Of a stretch of 40,886 nt of DNA, positions 712-28,599 are shown one piece after another (the first letter of the stretch is position 1; every line of letters begins with the position of its first letter). The translations under genes were made by a program, and so were the position numbers. Under the pieces are notes generated by a model. That model had not been told where the DNA came from. It saw nothing but the letters and a program-made list of their open reading frames with translations, and did no database searches. The DNA comes from Fibrobacter sp. (GTDB taxonomy: Bacteria; Fibrobacterota; Fibrobacteria; Fibrobacterales; Fibrobacteraceae): contig JAAZFC010000014.1 of the NCBI GenBank assembly GCA_012511955.1, positions 1 to 40,886 of the forward strand, in the 5' to 3' direction.

Positions 712-1572
712 ATGAGACAAAATTTTACTAACAAATTAAGTGCAAATATTAGTCGTTTTTCCAACCCAATATGTTTTGGAATGGACCCTGTTTTAGATTT
801 AATCCCCTGTGAGGGTTCAGGAGCAGAAAAAGTAAAAAGATTTTATTTAGATATACTAGAAGAAATGTTGCGCCGTAATGTTAAACCAGCGGCTATAAAG
901 CCTAATAGTGCTTATTATGAGAGTATTAGTATTGATGCCATAAAAGTTTTGCAAGAGCTAATTACAGCTTATGAAAGTGAAGGGATTTTATCTATTCTCG
1001 ATGCTAAAAGGGGAGATATTGGTAAGTCTTCCACCGCTTATGCTCAAGCGGCTTTTGATGTTTTTGGTGCCAGCGCTGTAACCGTTAGTCCTTGGATGGG
1101 GGCGGATTCTGTACAACCTTTTTTGCAAAATAGCGGTAAGGGAGTTTTTGTTTTGTTGCGCACCTCAAATATTGGGGCTGCTGATTTTCAAGACTTAAAT
1201 ATAGGTGACGGGGAACAAGCGTTTCACGCCGTAGCAAACAAATTATTAGAGTGGAATAATGGTGATTTAGGAGCAGTGGTTGGTGCTACAAATCCCACTG
1301 AGTTAGAGCGTATTACAGTTTTTTTTGTCAAGCAAAATAGTGAGATACCGTTTTTGATTCCAGGAGTTTCCATTCCAGGAGTGCCAGGACAGCAAGGTGG
1401 CGATGCGCATACAGTAATGCAAGCTTTGCGAGCTGGTGGTTCTAAACGAAACATACATTTGCTCAACAGCTCTAGTGGTTTAAGTTATGCATGGCAAGTG
1501 AAGGGAAAAGCAGATTTATACGCTTCAGCCACAGTGGATGCTTTGGAGCGTTTATGTGAAAGCATATTGTAA
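712..1572 (+). CDS. pyrF: Orotidine 5'-phosphate decarboxylase (type 2)
   Basis: Last step of UMP synthesis: decarboxylates OMP to UMP in the cytoplasm. The 286-residue length fits the longer type 2 (archaeal/mycobacterial-style) PyrF rather than the roughly 240-residue E. coli type. The catalytic Asp-x-Lys-x-x-Asp signature is at residues 97-102 (DAKRGD) with Lys99 as proton donor. The N-terminal substrate motif CFGMDP is at residues 21-26 and the phosphate-binding region PGVSIPGVPGQQGGD sits in the C-terminal third. The ATG at 712 has no clear Shine-Dalgarno sequence; an AT-rich TTTATATTTT element lies about 15-20 bases upstream. No other pyrimidine genes are in the window, so the gene appears to stand alone, followed by a small secreted protein. 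Confidence 0.93.
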   Translation: MRQNFTNKLSANISRFSNPICFGMDPVLDLIPCEGSGAEKVKRFYLDILEEMLRRNVKPAAIKPNSAYYESISIDAIKVLQELITAYESEGILSILDAKRGDIGKSSTAYAQAAFDVFGASAVTVSPWMGADSVQPFLQNSGKGVFVLLRTSNIGAADFQDLNIGDGEQAFHAVANKLLEWNNGDLGAVVGATNPTELERITVFFVKQNSEIPFLIPGVSIPGVPGQQGGDAHTVMQALRAGGSKRNIHLLNSSSGLSYAWQVKGKADLYASATVDALERLCESIL

Positions 1573-1620
1573 TCTTATGGCTTTGTTGTTATATTATTTT
1601 TAGTTAGATAAAGGAAGCTC

Positions 1621-1920
1621 ATGAAAAAAATATTATTCTTATTTATATTGGTTATGTTCACTCAACCAATTTTTGCCCAGCGTTATCCCATTGAGGATGA
1701 GTTTGAGCTTATGATGCTTTGCGTTGAAGGGAGCAATAAACACAAGTTCCGCAGTGAAAGACAGTTAATTGATTTTTGTGCTTGTTCCATTGAAGAAGCT
1801 CAAAAAAGAGTTAGTCATTCACAATTTAAAAGAGAGTTAAGGTCTAGAAAAGGTAAAAGAGGCGGAAATTCTTTTGAAGAACACTTTCAAAGAGCTGAAA
1901 GAAAATGCAGGCGTAGATAA
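1621..1920 (+). CDS. Small secreted protein of unknown function
   Basis: Not recognised as a named family. The 99-residue product begins with a classical signal peptide (KK, a run of Leu/Ile/Phe, then IFA before Gln20), so the mature part is about 80 residues in the periplasm or outside. The mature part has four cysteines (34, 53, 55 and 96), which could form two disulfides, and a strongly basic C-terminal half (RSRKGKRGG, then ERKCRRR at the end). The start ATG has a good ribosome binding site (AAGGAAG, about 6 bases upstream) and the gene ends in a clear intrinsic terminator at 1946-1973. It lies 48 bases after pyrF and may have its own AT-rich promoter (TTATATTATT). Periplasmic Cys-pair proteins of this size are common in Gram-negatives, but no function can be inferred. 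Confidence 0.75.
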   Translation: MKKILFLFILVMFTQPIFAQRYPIEDEFELMMLCVEGSNKHKFRSERQLIDFCACSIEEAQKRVSHSQFKRELRSRKGKRGGNSFEEHFQRAERKCRRR

Positions 1921-1945
1921 CAACTGCTGTTTTATTTGAGTTTAA

Positions 1946-1973
1946 GGTGCTCCATATTTGGAGTGCCTTTTTT
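1946..1973 (+). terminator. Intrinsic terminator after the small secreted gene
   Basis: Stem GGTGCTCC / GGAGTGCC (8 pairs including two G-U) with a 6-base loop ATATTT, followed by a run of six T. It ends two bases before the stop codon of the converging EAL-HDOD gene. Confidence 0.8.
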
Positions 1974-1974
1974 A

Positions 1975-3210
1975 TTATCCGTTCTGTTGAGCAAGACTTT
2001 CTACCCAATCCCACACTTCTAATAAAATTTGTTGTAACTGTTCTTCATTAATATTTAGTTTTTTCGCAGATTTAACAGCTTTTTCATATTGGTTTTGTTC
2101 TAATTCTTTACTAGTACAAAGTAAAGTGCCTAAAATTCCACTACGATTGATTAAGGCTTCTTCAACTTCTTTTTCTAAAGATATTTCGCTTATTATTTTG
2201 CTTAGTTCTACTTTATAAAGCGCATCCATTTGGGAAACCATGCCAGTTAAAAAAGCTTGGTCACTAAGTTTTGAGTTTCCAGGAATTTCCTTAGCCATAA
2301 GTTCCATGGTTCGCGCCCGCTGAGAAGCATTTAAAAACAAAGCGCTGCGAGCATTTTGCGAATCGTGGGCAAAAGTCATAATCATTAACCATTGTTGCAA
2401 CTTTTGCATTCCAATTAATGTCAAAGCTTGTCTAATGGAAGAAATTTCATTGCGCAAGCCGATGTTAACCGAGTTAATGAATTTTAGCAAGTTTAAGGTG
2501 ATTTCTGGTTGTTGCTTAAAGGCTTCTTCTAATTCCTCTATATCTGGGTCTTTTTGTATAAGATTTAATAGTTGTAAAATACATGCAGCCCTAGCATCGA
2601 TGCTATTGCCCTCGATAATTTCTGGTTTGGCAAAAAAGTATCCCTGAAAGAGGGAAAATCCATGTTTTGAGGTGTAGTTGAAATCCTCTTCATATTCAAC
2701 CTTTTCTGCTAAAAGTACGACTTTGTGATGGCTTAAATATTTGCTTGCCTCTGATATCTGTTGTGGGCTATTTAAAGTTAAATCCACTTTAATAAAATCA
2801 GTGAAAGGAATTATGTCTTGGAAGTGTTCTAAATTGTCGGGATTCAAAACAAAATCATCTAATGCAATTTTAAAGCCAGCTTCTTTAAGGCTTTTTATAG
2901 CGACTAAAACATTTTCGTCTATTTTTACATCTTCTAAAACTTCGATGACAAAGACATTGGGATCCAAAGCGTGAAGAGCGCCTTCAAGTAGCATGTTGCG
3001 GTCGCAATTGATAAAAGCTAAAGATTTACCGACGATTTTTTCGATGCCAATGCTGTTTACCGTGTTTACTATAACTTGTGCAGTAGCTTTGGTGGCATCG
3101 TCTATAACTGCCGCCTTAGCGTTGGCACTGCGAAATAACAATTCATAGGCAAAAATATTTTTTTCTTGGTCTAAAATAGGCTGTCTCGCCATATAAATTT
3201 TGTTTTGCAT
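1975..3210 (-). CDS. EAL-HDOD signalling protein (YuxH/CdgJ type)
   Basis: Two-domain cytoplasmic signalling protein of 411 residues. Residues 1-200 form a shortened EAL-like domain of the kind fused to HDOD: it opens with ARQPILD, and the EAL motif reads ELL (residues 23-25). It keeps ALDDF, has AEKVE in place of the active-enzyme AEGVE, and ends in QGYFFAKP. Residues about 200-395 form an HDOD domain (LLKFINSVN, IRQALTLIGMQKLQQWL). Characterised EAL-HDOD proteins usually lack c-di-GMP phosphodiesterase activity and act as regulators of motility or surface behaviour; loss of activity here is inferred from the altered motifs. The gene follows hisG with a 20-base gap, so the two are probably co-transcribed, although a functional link to histidine synthesis is not evident. 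Confidence 0.85.
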   Translation of the reverse strand: MQNKIYMARQPILDQEKNIFAYELLFRSANAKAAVIDDATKATAQVIVNTVNSIGIEKIVGKSLAFINCDRNMLLEGALHALDPNVFVIEVLEDVKIDENVLVAIKSLKEAGFKIALDDFVLNPDNLEHFQDIIPFTDFIKVDLTLNSPQQISEASKYLSHHKVVLLAEKVEYEEDFNYTSKHGFSLFQGYFFAKPEIIEGNSIDARAACILQLLNLIQKDPDIEELEEAFKQQPEITLNLLKFINSVNIGLRNEISSIRQALTLIGMQKLQQWLMIMTFAHDSQNARSALFLNASQRARTMELMAKEIPGNSKLSDQAFLTGMVSQMDALYKVELSKIISEISLEKEVEEALINRSGILGTLLCTSKELEQNQYEKAVKSAKKLNINEEQLQQILLEVWDWVESLAQQNG

Positions 3211-13545: not shown

Positions 13546-15252
13546 ATGAAATATTCTAATTTTTTAATGTCATTAATGCTGATGGTAGTATTGGCTTTTT
13601 CTTGGTCATTGCCATCACCGGTTGTAACTTTAGAAATACCCCATCATCTATACATAATCAAGAACAATACTGTAATAGACAAGTATGCTGTTGCAGAAAT
13701 AGATAGCATAGCTGTGGTAAAAACCCATTCATCTCACAGTTTGCGTTTTTTTGAAGATGGCGTAGAGCTTGCTAGCTACGATGTTAATTCAGATATAGAT
13801 AGTATAATCTTTGAAAATAGCTTAGCCGGCGAATTTCAGGATAGCATAAGTGGCGAAAAGTATTCCTGGGTGCAAATCGGTTCCACAAAATGGTTGAGCA
13901 AAAATCTTGATTACCTTCCCTCAGTTCGTACCGTTTCTGAAACCAGTAGCATTGCTAACCGCTATCATGTGTATGATTACTATGGAAACTCTACAACAGA
14001 AGCAAAAGAAAGTGCTAATTACATAACTTATGGAACGCTTTATAATTGGCAATCAGCTTTAGATGCCTGTCCCAACGGCTGGCGCCTGCCCACAAAAACT
14101 GAGTGGGAAGACCTGGTAGAGATTGCTCAAGGTGAAAAATCAGCCAGCAAAATGTTGCGCCAAGATTACACATGGAACGATAGTAGTAAAGTCAATAATT
14201 TCATGGGCTTCAGCGCTTTAGCTGGTGGTTATTTGAATAGTAATTTTGATTTTGACCAAATCAATAGTCAGGCCTACTGGTGGTCAAGTACCAAAACCGC
14301 CGACAGCGTTTATTATTTTAATTTATCCAAAGATTTAGCTGTGGTTTCAGCCACTGATCGTGAGTTTTTAGGGCATTCTGTCCGTTGCGTAGAGGGAGAT
14401 GTCATTAGACACAAAGTCTCTGTTGGTGTGCAAGGAAAAGGTTCTATTGGTGTTACAACCAGTGCTAAAAATGGCGATCGTCATTATCCTCAGCATAAAG
14501 TAATCTCTATATCCGCTTACCCCAACGATTCTTTAACCAGATTTAGTCACTGGAGTGGTGATGTACATCTTTTAGAGGATAGCACTCTAAACCCTTTAAG
14601 CTTTTCTATGCCCGATGCTCCTGTTAACTTAGTGGCTAATTTCGCTCCCAATTTAAAAATAACCATTGAGGCTAATCCTGCTGGGGCAGCTACCTTTACT
14701 GGGGGGGATGGCATTTATGGTCCTGGTGACACCGTAAGTATAAGAACAACCGTGGACCCCAATTACAGATTTTTGGGTTGGGCTGCTAACAGCGCTATTG
14801 TTGATGCCAATAATGCTAATACTAGGGTGATAATGCCTGATAGTAACCTAAAGATAACAGCTAATTTTACCCAGGCCTACCAACTAAATCTTACAGCTGA
14901 TTTAGCTGCAGGAGGAACGGTTACTGGAAGTGGTAAATACGCAGCCAACGCCGCAGTAAATATTGGTGTTAGTGTTAAATCTAATCACAAATTTATTTAT
15001 TGGACTGGGCCTGGTGCCATGTACCTTGACGATAGTACCAAAGCTTCTGCTAGTTTGAAAATGCCCTCTAATGAAGTAAATATCACCGCTAAAATTGTAG
15101 CTTTAAGCGGCACCGTAACAGATTCTAGGGATGGAAACAAATACAACTGGAAGCTAATTGGTGAATATCAGTGGTTTACTGAAAACTTAGCCTATTTGCC
15201 CAATAAGGTCCATAAACCTACAGATACTTCTTATAGTCAAGCAAGGTACTAA
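13546..15252 (+). CDS. Fibrobacter major paralogous domain (FISUMP) surface protein, truncated by in-frame stop
   Basis: Secreted surface protein of 568 residues. Order: signal peptide (about 1-22); N-terminal domain to about 95; a complete Fib_succ_major domain (about 95-285, with WVQIGSTKWLSKNLDYLP, LDACPNGWRLPTKTEW, YWWSST and HSVRCVEG). Three divergent InlB-type repeats of about 75 residues follow (starts near 287, 369 and 443, each with an F-x-x-W/G core and ending in an NLVANF/KITANF-like strand). Last is the first 45-50 residues of a second Fib_succ_major domain (YNWKLIGEYQWFTENLAYLP). That domain is cut by a TAA at 15250-15252, and the rest continues in the same frame to 15729. FISUMP proteins are abundant in Fibrobacter, thought to act at the surface, but have no proven activity. 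A stable truncated protein, readthrough, or a sequencing error are all possible. Confidence 0.85.
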   Translation: MKYSNFLMSLMLMVVLAFSWSLPSPVVTLEIPHHLYIIKNNTVIDKYAVAEIDSIAVVKTHSSHSLRFFEDGVELASYDVNSDIDSIIFENSLAGEFQDSISGEKYSWVQIGSTKWLSKNLDYLPSVRTVSETSSIANRYHVYDYYGNSTTEAKESANYITYGTLYNWQSALDACPNGWRLPTKTEWEDLVEIAQGEKSASKMLRQDYTWNDSSKVNNFMGFSALAGGYLNSNFDFDQINSQAYWWSSTKTADSVYYFNLSKDLAVVSATDREFLGHSVRCVEGDVIRHKVSVGVQGKGSIGVTTSAKNGDRHYPQHKVISISAYPNDSLTRFSHWSGDVHLLEDSTLNPLSFSMPDAPVNLVANFAPNLKITIEANPAGAATFTGGDGIYGPGDTVSIRTTVDPNYRFLGWAANSAIVDANNANTRVIMPDSNLKITANFTQAYQLNLTADLAAGGTVTGSGKYAANAAVNIGVSVKSNHKFIYWTGPGAMYLDDSTKASASLKMPSNEVNITAKIVALSGTVTDSRDGNKYNWKLIGEYQWFTENLAYLPNKVHKPTDTSYSQARY

Positions 15253-15729
15253 GTCTATGGCTATAATGGTACCAATGTAAGCACTGCCAAAAACAACGCA
15301 AATTATGAAAAATACGGTGTGCTTTATAATAATATGGCTGCCTTCTCTTTGCATGGAGATAATTGTCCCACTGGATGGGATCCAGCTTCTTCGGAGTCGT
15401 GGGATAATATAATGGCTGCTTATACAGATGTTAGGGATTTTAAAAGCACCACGGGGTGGCCAGAAGAATATTTTGTAGGGGCACCTGGTAATGGAACCAA
15501 TAAGTCGGGTTTTAATGCCAAACCCGGGGGGGTTCTTAACGGGTCTCACCAAAAGTTTGAGAAAGAAGGTCATACAGGATATTGGTGGATAGATAGTGCA
15601 TGGCCTCCAGATCGACCTACTGTAGGATGGTCATATAATTTTGTTGAAAGAATTAATAAGCATGACGAAGCAAGGACTCATGGACTATCCGTTCGCTGTG
15701 TTAAAAGAGCTTACACTCCTCCTAAATAA
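15253..15729 (+). pseudogene. In-frame remainder of the second FISUMP domain
   Basis: Continues the preceding gene without a frame change directly after its TAA. VYGYNGTNVSTAKNNANYEK aligns with the segment after the same Arg-Tyr in the first domain (RYHVYDYYGN...), so the stop replaces the residue equivalent to His. Further FISUMP landmarks follow: YGVLYNNMAAF, DNCPTGWDPASSESWDNIM, GYWWIDS and THGLSVRCVKRA. The remnant then ends normally at 15729, with an intrinsic terminator behind it. There is no ribosome binding site before the first internal ATG codons (about 15334), so independent translation is unlikely. It is best read as the 3' part of a gene broken by one nonsense codon. Confidence 0.8.
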
Positions 15730-24130: not shown

Positions 24131-25015
24131 ATGGCTACATTGCATAGAGGTACGCGTGAAATTTCTTGTAAAATAGTTTATTATGGACCTGGCTTAAGCG
24201 GGAAAACTACTAATTTACAAGTTGTACACCAAAGAATACCACGCGATAAAAAAACAGAAATGATATCTTTATCTACTGAAGGGGATCGTACTTTGTTTTT
24301 TGACTTTTTACCTTTAAATTTAGGCAGCATCCAAGGTTTTAAAACCAAGTTTCAACTTTATACTGTTCCCGGTCAAGTATATTACAATGCCACTCGTAAA
24401 ATGGTACTGCGTGGCGTTGATGGGGTGGTTTTTGTGGCTGATTCCCAGCGCTCTCGCATGGCTGAAAATATTGAGAGTTTACAGAATTTGCGTCAAAATA
24501 TTCAAGAAAACAATTTGAAACTAGATAATTTGCCTTTGGTTATTCAATATAATAAACGCGATTTAGATGATATTTTTTCTGTAGAAGAATTAAATGAGCA
24601 ATTAAACCCTGATGGTTTGCCTTGGTACGCGGCTACAGCACATAATGGAAAAGGGGTAATCTCTACTTTAAAAGCTATTTCTATGTTAGTCATAGAAGAA
24701 TTTAATAGAAATCACGGGGTGTTGCGGAAAGTTATTAAGTCTTTTTCTGATAAAGCGGAAAGTGTGAATGTATCTGCATTTAAGCCAATTAATGCACCTT
24801 CAACCTCTGATTCTGAAGCTAAGAAAGATAAAAAAACTAAAACTCCCATGGCTGCTTCTCCTTTTAAAGCACCTAAGATTTCAAAATCAAAACCTAGCAC
24901 TGGCGTTCCTCGCATCGGTAGTGGTACAGGTTTAAATACCCCTTTGAATCTAAAAATGCCCGAAGAAGAAATTGAGCTTAGACCTTATATCCCTAAAGAT
25001 AAGGATAAAACATGA
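24131..25015 (+). CDS. mglA: MglA-type small Ras-like GTPase with long C-terminal extension
   Basis: Polarity/gliding GTPase. The first 195 or so residues are canonical MglA: P-loop YYGPGLSGKTT (residues 17-27), the MglA-specific TLFFDFLPL and YTVPGQVYYNATRKMVLRG segments, VADSQ, and the NKRD guanine-recognition motif. Typical MglA stops near 195; here about 95 further residues follow, rich in Lys, Ser, Pro and Ala (several KxSK/KxPK stretches) and ending EEIELRPYIPKDKDKT, probably disordered. In Myxococcus, MglA-GTP marks the leading pole and MglB is its GAP. The stop codon overlaps the start of the roadblock gene by 4 bases. It starts a five-gene unit reaching 29992. Confidence 0.92.
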   Translation: MATLHRGTREISCKIVYYGPGLSGKTTNLQVVHQRIPRDKKTEMISLSTEGDRTLFFDFLPLNLGSIQGFKTKFQLYTVPGQVYYNATRKMVLRGVDGVVFVADSQRSRMAENIESLQNLRQNIQENNLKLDNLPLVIQYNKRDLDDIFSVEELNEQLNPDGLPWYAATAHNGKGVISTLKAISMLVIEEFNRNHGVLRKVIKSFSDKAESVNVSAFKPINAPSTSDSEAKKDKKTKTPMAASPFKAPKISKSKPSTGVPRIGSGTGLNTPLNLKMPEEEIELRPYIPKDKDKT

Positions 25016-25434
25016 ATGATTTTTCAATTTACGCAGCTGATGCTGTAAAAATACAAGCTTTACTTCAAGCATATAGACAAAGCACTAATTGCGAATATGT
25101 GCTATTATCGCATCGTGATGGTGCTGTTATTGCAGAAGCTGGCGAAATAGAGAAAGAATCATCGACATTATCGGTCTTATGTACTGCTTCATTTGATTCT
25201 GCTCAACAAATAGGCATGATTTTAGGGGAGCCTGGTTTTCAAGCGGTGTCTTATTTGGGGAAATCTCGCTCTGTTTATATTTCTGCGGTGGGCAATTCCA
25301 TCCTTTTAATGCAAGTGTATCCTGATGATAGATTGCCAAAGAATATTGATTCCTATAGCACAAAATTAGTGGAACTTCTTATAGATGCTGTTCCAGCTTT
25401 TACTCAAGATAGTTCAAACAACCTTTCTCGTTAA
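25012..25434 (+). CDS. mglB: Roadblock/LC7 domain protein, MglB-like
   Basis: 140-residue single roadblock/LC7-domain protein, the expected GTPase-activating partner of MglA. Recognisable roadblock features are the opening helix, the hairpin YVLLSHRDGAVIAEAGE, a central helix starting SSTLSVLCTASFDSAQQIG, and the strand SVYISAVGNSILLMQVYPDD. The ATGA overlap with mglA implies coupled translation and a fixed ratio. The order mglA-mglB is the reverse of Myxococcus mglBA. The assignment as MglB depends mainly on context, because roadblock domains are hard to subdivide by eye. Confidence 0.83.
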   Translation: MNDFSIYAADAVKIQALLQAYRQSTNCEYVLLSHRDGAVIAEAGEIEKESSTLSVLCTASFDSAQQIGMILGEPGFQAVSYLGKSRSVYISAVGNSILLMQVYPDDRLPKNIDSYSTKLVELLIDAVPAFTQDSSNNLSR

Positions 25435-25441
25435 TAGTTAG

Positions 25442-25891
25442 ATGCCCTCCAGGCGAATACGAAAAACTGTGTGGGCGGGTCTAATATTAGTGGTGCTTTA
25501 TTTATTAAGCCGCATTGCATTTTACACTTTAGATCCAGAAAACATCATAGACTTAGATAAAGGGGATAATTTAAACGCAAAACAAGAAGTTTATGCAATG
25601 TGTGCTCATATAGTAGATGGCAAACCGCTGGTTTTAGATTCTGTTTTTTCTGTAAAAAAGAATATTTACGCTTATTCACAGCATTCCCATAGAACTCATT
25701 TAATGCATCATTGGTTTCTTGACTCAACTTTAGTTTTTAGCCATCTCTGTTCTTATGATACTGTGTGTATAAGCACTGACCACAAAAAAATGCAACCTGG
25801 GGAGTGGTCGGTGGATTTTGTTGAAGGTGACAAGTTAAAGTCAACAGTGCAGTTTCGCGTATTAGCTAAAGAAAATCCATGCCGAAAATAA
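25442..25891 (+). CDS. Membrane-anchored DUF2914-like protein
   Basis: 149 residues with one N-terminal membrane segment (VWAGLILVVLYLLSRIAF, residues about 10-27) and a periplasmic domain. The domain has the pattern of DUF2914: a V.A.CAHIVDGKP.. opening, a central HHWFLDSTLVFSHLC strand pair, and MQPGEWSVDFVEGDK near the end. The function of that domain is unknown. It begins 7 bases after mglB and its last 13 bases overlap the next gene, so it belongs to the same transcript. Its membrane topology would place it between the cytoplasmic MglA/MglB pair and the outer-membrane proteins encoded next. Confidence 0.6.
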   Translation: MPSRRIRKTVWAGLILVVLYLLSRIAFYTLDPENIIDLDKGDNLNAKQEVYAMCAHIVDGKPLVLDSVFSVKKNIYAYSQHSHRTHLMHHWFLDSTLVFSHLCSYDTVCISTDHKKMQPGEWSVDFVEGDKLKSTVQFRVLAKENPCRK

Positions 25892-28599
25892 CTCAAGGAA
25901 TATTAACTGGTTTGCTACTAGTTTTTTTGTCCAATGTTTTTGCTGAAACTAGGGGCTTGTCTTTGGTAGATGTTAAAATTTGGGATATGCTTGAAAAAAA
26001 TGCTTATGCTTTATATGAAAAATCCTCTCAATTAGCCCCTCAAGAAAAAGATTCTCTTTGGATAAATGGGCATAAAAGCATGCGTGTAGTAGTAGGTGAG
26101 GGTGGCTCTGAGGTGCAACAAGAGCTGCGCTTACAAATGCAGGGAGAAGTGGCCGCAGGCTGGTATTTAGAGGGACTGCTGGTAGATGAAGGACTTTCGG
26201 TGGGAGAATTGCGAGTTTCTACTCTGCAAGATGTTAGCGCCATGTATTTGCGTCTATATAAGGGTAATGTGATTTTTACTTTAGGTGAAACAGAATTTAA
26301 TCATGAGGGGTCGTTTTTAGATGATTTTAGCCATGCTACGGCGGGATTTAGCTTAAAATCTGCAGGGAAAAAGGTGAAAAGTCAAGTGGCTTTAGGACAA
26401 AGTTCAGCGCACACTAAAACAACAGTTTTCCAAGGTTACGATGGTCAAAGACAAGGCTATTTAGTTGGTGAAAACAATGAGTTTGTTGCGGTGGTTCCAA
26501 ATTCTGAGACGGTTTGGTGGCAGGGTAAAAAATTGGAGCGGGGAGTGGATTATCGCATGGAATATGTGGGTGGTGTTTTAGATTTTTTGGGAAGTAATAG
26601 CCCGTCTAGCCGAGATGAAGTGGTGGTAACTTACGAAGAATGGGAAGAAGATTCAGGCAGAGATTTTTTGGGAATAGATTTACTTGGAAAATGGAAATAT
26701 GCCAATATACGAGCATCAGTTATAGATATAACTGGAGATTCTCTAGTAGCACCCCGAGGGTTAATGTTGGCAGGAGCGGCTATTAAACCAACGAGCTTTT
26801 TGTGGTTAGAAAGTGAGTTGTTTCATAATCCATATCAGCAAGCTAATTTGTGGAGTTATAATTTGGGAAGCGATTCGGGTTGGCAAGCTAATAATCGTAA
26901 TTTTGCTTTTTCTGTTCAGGGAATGCATTTAGAAGAAGGCTTTAGTGCATTAAATTTTAATGGATTGCAAAATTACTGGAACAATCATATTTTACAACGA
27001 CATTGGTATTTAAAAGATTTGGATAGTGCAGAGAGTAAAAATTATCAACAATTACGCTGGGGGCTTAGGCCGGGCGCAAATTTAAACACTAGGATTGACT
27101 GGGGATATAAATATGGTGAAGATTGGAATGCCCAAAGATGGTCTTGGCTTTGGGAGCGCAAAACAACGAAATCCAAAGTAGATTGGGAACTTGCACACAT
27201 AGATTCTTGGCAAAAGCAACAGCAAAGTAGCGGATGGCAATCTTCGTTAAATATGCAGACTTATTTAAATAATTTGCAAATTTATGGTGGAGTATTTGGA
27301 GCGCAAAAAGAACAGCCTGCAAAAGCTGAGCATTATGAATGGGAGTTAAATTCAGGGATTAAGAGTGATTTTTGGTTGTTTCAAGATCTGCATGAAGATA
27401 TAAAATGGGAAGGAGTAGCGCAATTAAAAAATAAATATTTGGTGGATTCAATGCAAAGAATGGTATGGACCCAAAGCTTTAATATGGGAGAAGGGTGGTG
27501 GCGTTGGAATTCATTTGTGCAGGGACAATGGTGGTTGCATGGCAATGAATACCAACAAAATTATATGGGGGCTTCTGAGCAACGCTTAGATTTGTGGCAT
27601 CGAGCATGGGAATTAAACCTTTTGCATCGCATGGATCTCACCGCAGAACAGCTTTTTAGGCCAGTTTACAAAAAAGTGGAGCCTGGTTTGGGAGATGTAG
27701 TGTGGGATAGTCTTAGCGGAGAGTTTATAGAGGGTGTAGATCAAGGGGATTATATTTTTGATGGAAGCATAAGGGACGATTCTTTGGCGGCCATACGCAC
27801 CGCTGATGCGCAATTTAGCGCTGATTTATGGTGGTTTCCGCGGGAGCAGTTTGCTGTACGCCATGGAATTTTAGCAGATTTGAGTTTAGGAGCAAGTCTT
27901 TTATTGCACGGCCGCGATACCACCAAGCTTTGGGGAAGCTTACCTTGGAAAAAAAGCCATTTAAATAATCTTGTGGATGGACTTTATGGATGGTCTTTAA
28001 AAACTCGGTGGCACCCAAGTTCTGGCAAATTAAATGCGCTTTTAAGCTGGGGGAGCGAATCCCAAAGATCTGGCGGAACTTATGCGGGGGCCGAGTCGCG
28101 GGGTTTTCAGCAAATTGATTTGCATTGGCAATTGCACAAAAACTTGCGGTGGCAAGGCTTTGGTGAGCGAGAACAGGTAGAAAGGACTCTTCCCAATGCA
28201 ATGCGCTGGACATCTTGGTCGCAAAAACACTACTTATTCTGGGATTTTAAAACCCATTGGGTAGGAGCGCCAAGTTTTAGATGGCAACAAAGTGATGGTG
28301 CCTCTCTTTGGGGCAACTTACACACCAAATTATGGATTCCAGGACTTTTGATTCAATGGCAACCCTATGGTTTGTCGGTGGCGAGCATAGAGTACGGTTG
28401 GGCTTATTTACAAAGCGCCGATGCTTTAACGCCCTATAGGCTTAGTCAGGGCTATGCTCCAGGAATAACCCATCGAATAGAACTGACTGCAGACTATGCA
28501 GCCAAAGACGGTCTTTTATTTAGTCTTAGTTATTTGTTGCGTGGAGATGCTAGTGCTTGGTTCCAAAAATTAAGCGGGGAGGCGCATCTTGATTTTTAA
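25879..28599 (+). CDS. Large Trp-rich outer-membrane beta-barrel protein with SprA-like motif
   Basis: 906 residues with a signal peptide (about 1-22, NVFAE) and no other membrane helix. Residues about 125-255 hold the most recognisable part: LGETEF, FLDDF, a GYDGQRQGYLVGENNEF stretch, then SETVWWQGKKLERGVDYRMEY and the following VVVTYEEWEE. This G/S-E-x-V-W-x-(D/Q)GKxLxRGxDYxxxY pattern is seen in SprA-type (Bacteroidota T9SS) and related Fibrobacter outer-membrane proteins. The rest is a long run of alternating amphipathic strands, very rich in Trp, ending in LDF, a terminal aromatic as in barrel proteins. It is much shorter than SprA (about 2,400 residues). It may be an export barrel or a surface-attached scaffold; no exact family is claimed. 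Confidence 0.55.
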   Translation: MPKITQGILTGLLLVFLSNVFAETRGLSLVDVKIWDMLEKNAYALYEKSSQLAPQEKDSLWINGHKSMRVVVGEGGSEVQQELRLQMQGEVAAGWYLEGLLVDEGLSVGELRVSTLQDVSAMYLRLYKGNVIFTLGETEFNHEGSFLDDFSHATAGFSLKSAGKKVKSQVALGQSSAHTKTTVFQGYDGQRQGYLVGENNEFVAVVPNSETVWWQGKKLERGVDYRMEYVGGVLDFLGSNSPSSRDEVVVTYEEWEEDSGRDFLGIDLLGKWKYANIRASVIDITGDSLVAPRGLMLAGAAIKPTSFLWLESELFHNPYQQANLWSYNLGSDSGWQANNRNFAFSVQGMHLEEGFSALNFNGLQNYWNNHILQRHWYLKDLDSAESKNYQQLRWGLRPGANLNTRIDWGYKYGEDWNAQRWSWLWERKTTKSKVDWELAHIDSWQKQQQSSGWQSSLNMQTYLNNLQIYGGVFGAQKEQPAKAEHYEWELNSGIKSDFWLFQDLHEDIKWEGVAQLKNKYLVDSMQRMVWTQSFNMGEGWWRWNSFVQGQWWLHGNEYQQNYMGASEQRLDLWHRAWELNLLHRMDLTAEQLFRPVYKKVEPGLGDVVWDSLSGEFIEGVDQGDYIFDGSIRDDSLAAIRTADAQFSADLWWFPREQFAVRHGILADLSLGASLLLHGRDTTKLWGSLPWKKSHLNNLVDGLYGWSLKTRWHPSSGKLNALLSWGSESQRSGGTYAGAESRGFQQIDLHWQLHKNLRWQGFGEREQVERTLPNAMRWTSWSQKHYLFWDFKTHWVGAPSFRWQQSDGASLWGNLHTKLWIPGLLIQWQPYGLSVASIEYGWAYLQSADALTPYRLSQGYAPGITHRIELTADYAAKDGLLFSLSYLLRGDASAWFQKLSGEAHLDF

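Follow-up and report, generated by a model that had tools for sequence, protein, structure and literature searches.

A SprA-related predicted outer-membrane barrel protein encoded with an Omp85-family partner and MglA/MglB homologs in Fibrobacter

RESULTS

A compact five-gene cluster encodes a large predicted barrel protein

We analyzed a 40,886-nucleotide stretch of Fibrobacter sp. DNA (contig JAAZFC010000014.1; hereafter, the window) and compared it with the rest of its genome (G000) and with related genomes. Genomes, contigs, loci, families, and genera are referred to by our own numbers (G, C, L, f, and g). Five genes on the forward strand overlap or nearly touch, with overlaps of 4 bp between mglA and mglB, 13 bp between the gene for a protein that we call X and the barrel gene, and 11 bp between the barrel gene and omp85. 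Their coordinates, and those of the modules discussed below, are listed in Table 1.

Table 1. Features of the gene cluster and of the flagellar genes that share a module with it
Feature	Position	Strand	Evidence
mglA, Ras/Arf-type small GTPase	24131..25015	+	Pfam Arf, 7.7e-9
mglB, Roadblock/LC7 protein	25012..25434	+	Pfam Robl_LC7, 1.9e-4, just under cut-off; NCBIfam MglB, 3.8e-6, below cut-off
Protein X, 149 aa	25442..25891	+	One N-terminal hydrophobic segment; Pfam uninformative
Large predicted outer-membrane beta-barrel protein, 906 aa	25879..28599	+	Open ORF
N module of barrel protein, residues ~56-188, co-linear with SprA ~160-313	26044..26442	+	hhalign
M module of barrel protein, residues 203-262	26485..26664	+	hhalign match to SprA 560-700
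Conserved insertion of barrel protein, residues 597-635	27667..27783	+	Run of invariant columns, 22-member alignment
Omp85/BamA-like partner, 467 aa	28589..29992	+	Pfam Omp85, 1.2e-5; POTRA, 0.0099
FlgK/FlgL with M module	G000 contig C15, L003:1-1119 and 1129-2799	-	M-module profile

The translated barrel ORF begins with a signal-like hydrophobic segment and ends in phenylalanine, and this last residue (F906) is invariant in a 22-member family alignment. The protein had been described as Trp-rich in an earlier note on this DNA, and its tryptophan content (52 of 906 residues, 5.7%) is indeed the highest among 43 aligned family members. A Pfam search of the protein returned zero families up to an E-value of 1. 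The insertion at residues 597-635 follows the pattern Y..V.PG.GDV..DSL.G.FI.GVD.GD...G..R.DS and was unmatched in the profile comparison with SprA. Directly after the signal segment, at residues ~31-36 (window 25969-25986), most relatives in family f1 carry a conserved DSLPVW peptide, which reads DVKIW here. W35 is invariant in the 22-member alignment, and the peptide is a possible candidate for a periplasmic docking site.

The mglA product contains P-loop (GPGLSGKTTN) and NKRD motifs and is the only MglA match in the genome; MglB is probably its GTPase-activating protein. The side-by-side genes for a Ras-like GTPase and a Roadblock protein recall MglA/MglB of Myxococcus and Thermus. Unlike in those systems, the Fibrobacter MglA tail ends in EIELRPYxPK and the operon runs into outer-membrane genes. 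This tail is long and variable, but its ending is kept in all ten aligned f1 proteins (one reads EIVLRPY) and is recognizable in family f2 (L083); the motif is a candidate docking peptide.

The Omp85 partner consists of a signal-like segment, one POTRA-like region, and an Omp85 barrel. Its Pfam score is above the cut-off for Omp85 (25.5 bits; cut-off, 24) and below it for POTRA (17.0 bits; cut-off, 21.3), and the best solved matches of its profile are BamA structures (5e-23). This layout resembles that of BamA and TamA of the Omp85 family. However, BamA and TamA have several POTRA domains, compared with one POTRA-like region here, and the partner gene adjoins a single client-like barrel gene.

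Two consecutive N-terminal modules match SprA

The earlier note had read a SprA-type motif in the barrel protein at residues 209-255, followed by a VVVTYE strand. The motif is present as read (SETVWWQGKKLERGVDYRMEYVGGVLDFLGSNSPSSRDEVVVTYEEW, with VVVTYE at 248), and it lies within the best local profile-profile alignment between 43 barrel family members and 22 Fibrobacterota SprA proteins (residues 176-286; 96.8% probability, E = 2.3e-10). We refer to this region as the M module; its pattern is VxGSExVxxNGxxLxRGxDYxVxYxxGxLxF...IxVxYE. Aligned to SprA 560-700 with hhalign, it scored 84.0 (E = 4.7e-16), and the highest of 60 column-shuffled controls scored 18.3.

A second match lies upstream. 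The N module is predicted to consist of antiparallel strands and has conserved G..G.GG, Q.L, and LGD positions. A slice covering residues 55-190 aligned to SprA 150-440 with a score of 35.8 (E = 7e-5), compared with a top score of 19.9 and a lowest E-value of 0.029 among 60 column shuffles. For a slice extended slightly beyond this, the E-value was 0.0029 with the whole SprA alignment as the target and rose to 0.35 when that alignment was reversed. The two modules occur in the same order in both proteins, with ~280 residues between them in SprA. Going by these profile comparisons, the N and M modules of the barrel protein are homologous to those of SprA.

The profile comparison of the C-terminal two thirds of the barrel protein with SprA gave nothing significant (E = 0.0016 to 0.008, including matches to the SprA C-terminus), and we do not claim a likeness between the two C-terminal parts on values of this size. 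Because the rest of the barrel protein has no convincing match, the part common to both proteins comprises the two N-terminal modules, and the two barrels may have independent origins behind this front part. Sequence searches of solved structures with the single barrel protein or the 22-member profile returned no match.

The M module also occurs in flagellar proteins

The SprA profile TIGR04189 aligns to residues 204-254 (model positions 603-653); this match spans 51 positions and reaches 15.2 bits, far short of the cut-off of 200. With the same profile run across the contigs of the genome, the barrel protein scored 16.8 bits, less than the 20.4 bits of a 574-aa frame on contig C15. This frame is FlgK (FlgK_D1, 3.3e-55), and the product of the gene beside it, which has a Flagellin_N domain (FlgL), also contains the M module. 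A 64-position M-module profile matched four places in the genome, namely the barrel protein, SprA, FlgK, and FlgL, and only SprA and the barrel family in three others (G145, G105, and G163). FlgK and FlgL with the module were also seen in G031 (L157 and L161). By profile match, then, this module of about 60 residues is common to flagellar hook-junction proteins and outer-membrane barrels. We dropped the motif alone as proof of SprA kinship: since FlgK and FlgL carry the same module, by itself it is weak evidence. The earlier view that the motif points to SprA holds for the ordered pair of N and M modules and not for the motif taken singly.

Within genus g4, flgK is the immediate upstream neighbor of the barrel gene in at least three genomes (L070:7604-9595, L012:1-1470, L024:2867-4324, and L033:2812-4287), and the adjoining flgK encodes one or two M-module copies. 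Other g4 genomes (L008 and L010) have the barrel gene without a flgK neighbor. FlgK was found in genera g1 to g4 (G000, G043, G044, G045, and G056) and was absent from sampled g5, g6, g7, g9, and g11 (G057, G095, G105, G145, G147, and G152). This distribution suggests that flagella were lost within the Fibrobacteraceae.

The predicted structure is neutral on SprA kinship

An AlphaFold2 model built from 43 sequences was almost all beta (pLDDT, 79.5; pTM, 0.70); 33 of its strands are 10 residues or longer, and 42 are 8 or longer. SprA is a single 36-strand barrel, and the counts for the model fit the SprA size class, although strand counts do not prove closure as one barrel. A Foldseek comparison with SprA, as the earlier note had proposed, yielded no SprA-specific match. 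For the whole model, MtrB, SlpA, and LptD outranked SprA, ushers were also among the matches, most TM-scores were ~0.13 to 0.27, and SprA 8GL8 appeared at rank 18 (E = 4.6e-6). For the slice spanning the N and M modules, SprA was absent from the best 50 matches. Because Foldseek returned only generic large barrels or chance matches, the predicted structure neither supports nor excludes kinship with SprA.

A separate SprA is encoded elsewhere in the genome and across the phylum

Three secreted proteins of the window had been read as ending in Por-type sorting domains. Two of these tails score above the TIGR04183 cut-off of 23 bits (ORF 13057, 32.7; ORF 15842, 19.3; ORF 19623, 23.7), and the tail of ORF 15842 falls below it. 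A translocon homolog had been expected nearby on the strength of these tails, but the real SprA lies on another contig, C1, as a 2,282-aa frame that scores 882 bits with its parts (TIGR04189). In this assembly, sprA (L127:2237-9085, - strand) is broken by one in-frame TGA into parts of 1,757 and 519 aa; it is intact in the relatives compared.

SprA scored above the cut-off in all 100 of the phylum genomes searched (each at least 90% complete). PF14349 (SprA_N) is missing from the barrel protein and present in a Fibrobacterota SprA (L128, 1.4e-23). PorV-like proteins, suggested earlier as something to look for elsewhere in the genome, do occur on other contigs; two of these PorV-family proteins are above the cut-off, and none is encoded next to the barrel gene. 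Since a separate SprA is present in this genome and in all 100 searched, and the PorV-family proteins lie elsewhere, the barrel protein is, as far as sequence can tell, neither SprA nor a core part of the type IX secretion system (T9SS), nor is it the translocon of that system. It had been proposed to be either a minimal relative of SprA or a distinct paralog. The second description fits better. The outcome that the earlier note had named as counting against its proposal, a lack of any match to SprA domains, did not arise, as two consecutive modules match in order.

The barrel family spans the Fibrobacterota

Single-sequence searches found the barrel family in 143 of 168 Fibrobacterota genomes, covering most families sampled, and a profile search added genomes that had been missed (for example, G165 and G001). 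The genome studied here has one copy, and members range from 833 to ~1,225 aa. When six deep members were used to scan 84,980 species genomes, the matches included Fibrobacterota members, a number of them titled Chitinispirillia or Chitinivibrionales, and two Armatimonadota proteins (L178, 851 aa; L179, 905 aa) that are distant and share the length and the N-plus-M layout. Also found was a 1,612-aa protein from UBP8 in which the M module occurs several times. The M module further brought up a SprA-like fragment from Gemmatimonadaceae and, in two Olivibacter species, the true SprA. In a profile search of six genomes that included these two, both Olivibacter genomes had SprA and no barrel family member was found in either. 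A plasmid collection searched for the family was unmatched.

The libraries and the literature that we searched, the latter mostly outside subscription journals, held no description of the barrel family. It is best filed as an undescribed family that shares N-terminal modules with SprA and has different partners.

Omp85 is a steadier partner of the barrel than MglA

The order mglA-mglB-X-barrel-omp85 is complete in 10 of 10 long f1 loci outside genus g4. Among 29 shorter f1 loci, X lies directly upstream of the barrel gene in 24, and the five exceptions all belong to g4; omp85 follows the barrel gene in 23 of those 24, and the remaining locus (L018) stops too soon after the barrel gene for omp85 to be visible. 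Family f2 has the order mglA tail, mglB, barrel, omp85, without X. In families f3, f4, and f14, the barrel gene is paired with omp85 without adjacent mglAB, so that omp85 adjoins it in five families (f1, f2, f3, f4, and f14). Locus comparison revealed no neighboring Omp85 partner in most of the deeper families (f7, f9, and f11).

Genus g4 has lost the operon. Each of the six g4 genomes searched has an unlinked Omp85 copy, which begins within the POTRA region or beyond it, and the barrel is present in five of these genomes. In the sixth, G055 (94% complete), the Omp85 partner was found and the barrel was not. A separate 924- to 937-aa protein in g4 genomes matches the Omp85 profile more weakly and is probably BamA proper. 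MglA was not found in the six g4 genomes or in four others (G160, G163, G166, and G167); the barrel is present in all of these except G055.

Omp85 is therefore the steadier partner of the barrel, because g4, in which MglA was not found, lost the operon yet kept an unlinked Omp85. MglA is an optional, lineage-specific layer, since the barrel is also present in genomes that gave no MglA match. The Omp85 partnership is itself not universal, since families f7, f9, and f11 have the barrel without a neighboring Omp85 gene.

DISCUSSION

We infer, with a probability of about 0.5, that the barrel protein is a SprA-related outer-membrane conduit or platform that has a dedicated Omp85 partner and comes under MglA/MglB control in some lineages. 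The Omp85 partner, as a paralog of BamA, would most likely insert, complete, or gate the barrel, and the two would together form one outer-membrane device, either a conduit or a surface platform. In the Fibrobacterales, where the pair shares one operon with mglA, mglB, and the gene for X, MglA and MglB would probably set where or when the device acts, as a positional cue or as a switch. A bridge between the inner membrane and the device could be provided by protein X, perhaps relaying MglA/MglB. A fuller proposal, that the barrel is a second SprA-derived conduit apart from the T9SS, serving an undescribed transport or surface machine with its own Omp85 and with MglA/MglB spatial control in the Fibrobacterales, is one that we hold only tentatively and consider rather unlikely.

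SprA/Sov (TIGR04189 and PF14349; structures 6H3I, 8GL6, and 8GL8) is the closest known system, resembling the barrel protein in the order of the N and M modules and in forming a very large outer-membrane barrel. It differs in length (2,000 to 2,450 aa, compared with 906 aa) and in gene neighbors; the barrel protein lacks PF14349, coexists with a separate SprA, and has no detectable homology to SprA over its C-terminal two thirds. It is highly improbable that the barrel is a minimal SprA, acting as a substitute translocon that exports the Por-tailed proteins of the window in the T9SS. The ordered modules and the cargo-like proteins nearby would fit such a role. The separate SprA in every genome searched, the missing PF14349, a TIGR04189 score of 15 bits where 200 are required, and the absence of a PorV-type neighbor, with PorV-family proteins located elsewhere, all argue against it. 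One reservation is the in-frame stop in this assembly's sprA, though across the phylum the barrel occurs beside an intact SprA. Less improbable, though still doubtful, is that the protein is a large porin-like or uptake barrel of the ordinary kind and has only picked up a promiscuous M module, in which case its SprA likeness would be due to module shuffling. The presence of the module in FlgK and FlgL, its several copies in the UBP8 protein, and the generic large barrels returned by Foldseek are consistent with shuffling. FlgK and FlgL have helical domains before the M-module motif. Shuffling would not explain why the N module also matches SprA, and in the right order, as flagellar proteins are not expected to share it; nor do variable uptake porins resemble a family that most of the phylum carries, generally in single copy, and that has its own Omp85 partner.

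The barrel might instead be the outer-membrane part of an MglA-driven or MglA-positioned gliding or attachment machine, replacing the Glt outer-membrane proteins of Myxococcus. The sole MglA gene found in the genome lies in the same tight operon as the barrel, and the gene order is kept in nearly all sampled f1 loci outside g4 and, without X, in f2. Homologs of the Glt/Agl core complex have been reported in Fibrobacter, but GltA, B, F, H, I, J, and K occur only in the Myxococcales and Bdellovibrionales (PMC3169522), which makes a gliding role a serious alternative. Set against this, MglA was not found in g4, G160, G163, G166, or G167, nearly all of which keep the barrel, and barrel and Omp85 are encoded together without adjacent mglAB in f3, f4, and f14. 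Because the barrel occurs without MglA, gliding is unlikely as its original function, and we regard this account as a whole as unlikely too.

As a SprA-related conduit or platform, the barrel would bear on two questions. SprA ranks with the largest known outer-membrane barrels made of one chain, and its origin calls for an explanation; a smaller family that has a SprA front end and occurs with SprA in most of the phylum is a natural comparison for finding the export-specific parts of SprA. In relatives of Fibrobacter, the operon also sets the gene for a polarity GTPase next to genes for outer-membrane proteins, which bears on the outer-membrane side of surface behavior.

A further feature of the window concerns a gene for a FISUMP-domain protein (13546-15729), which is interrupted at 15250-15252 by an in-frame TAA, past which its second FISUMP domain carries on in the same frame.
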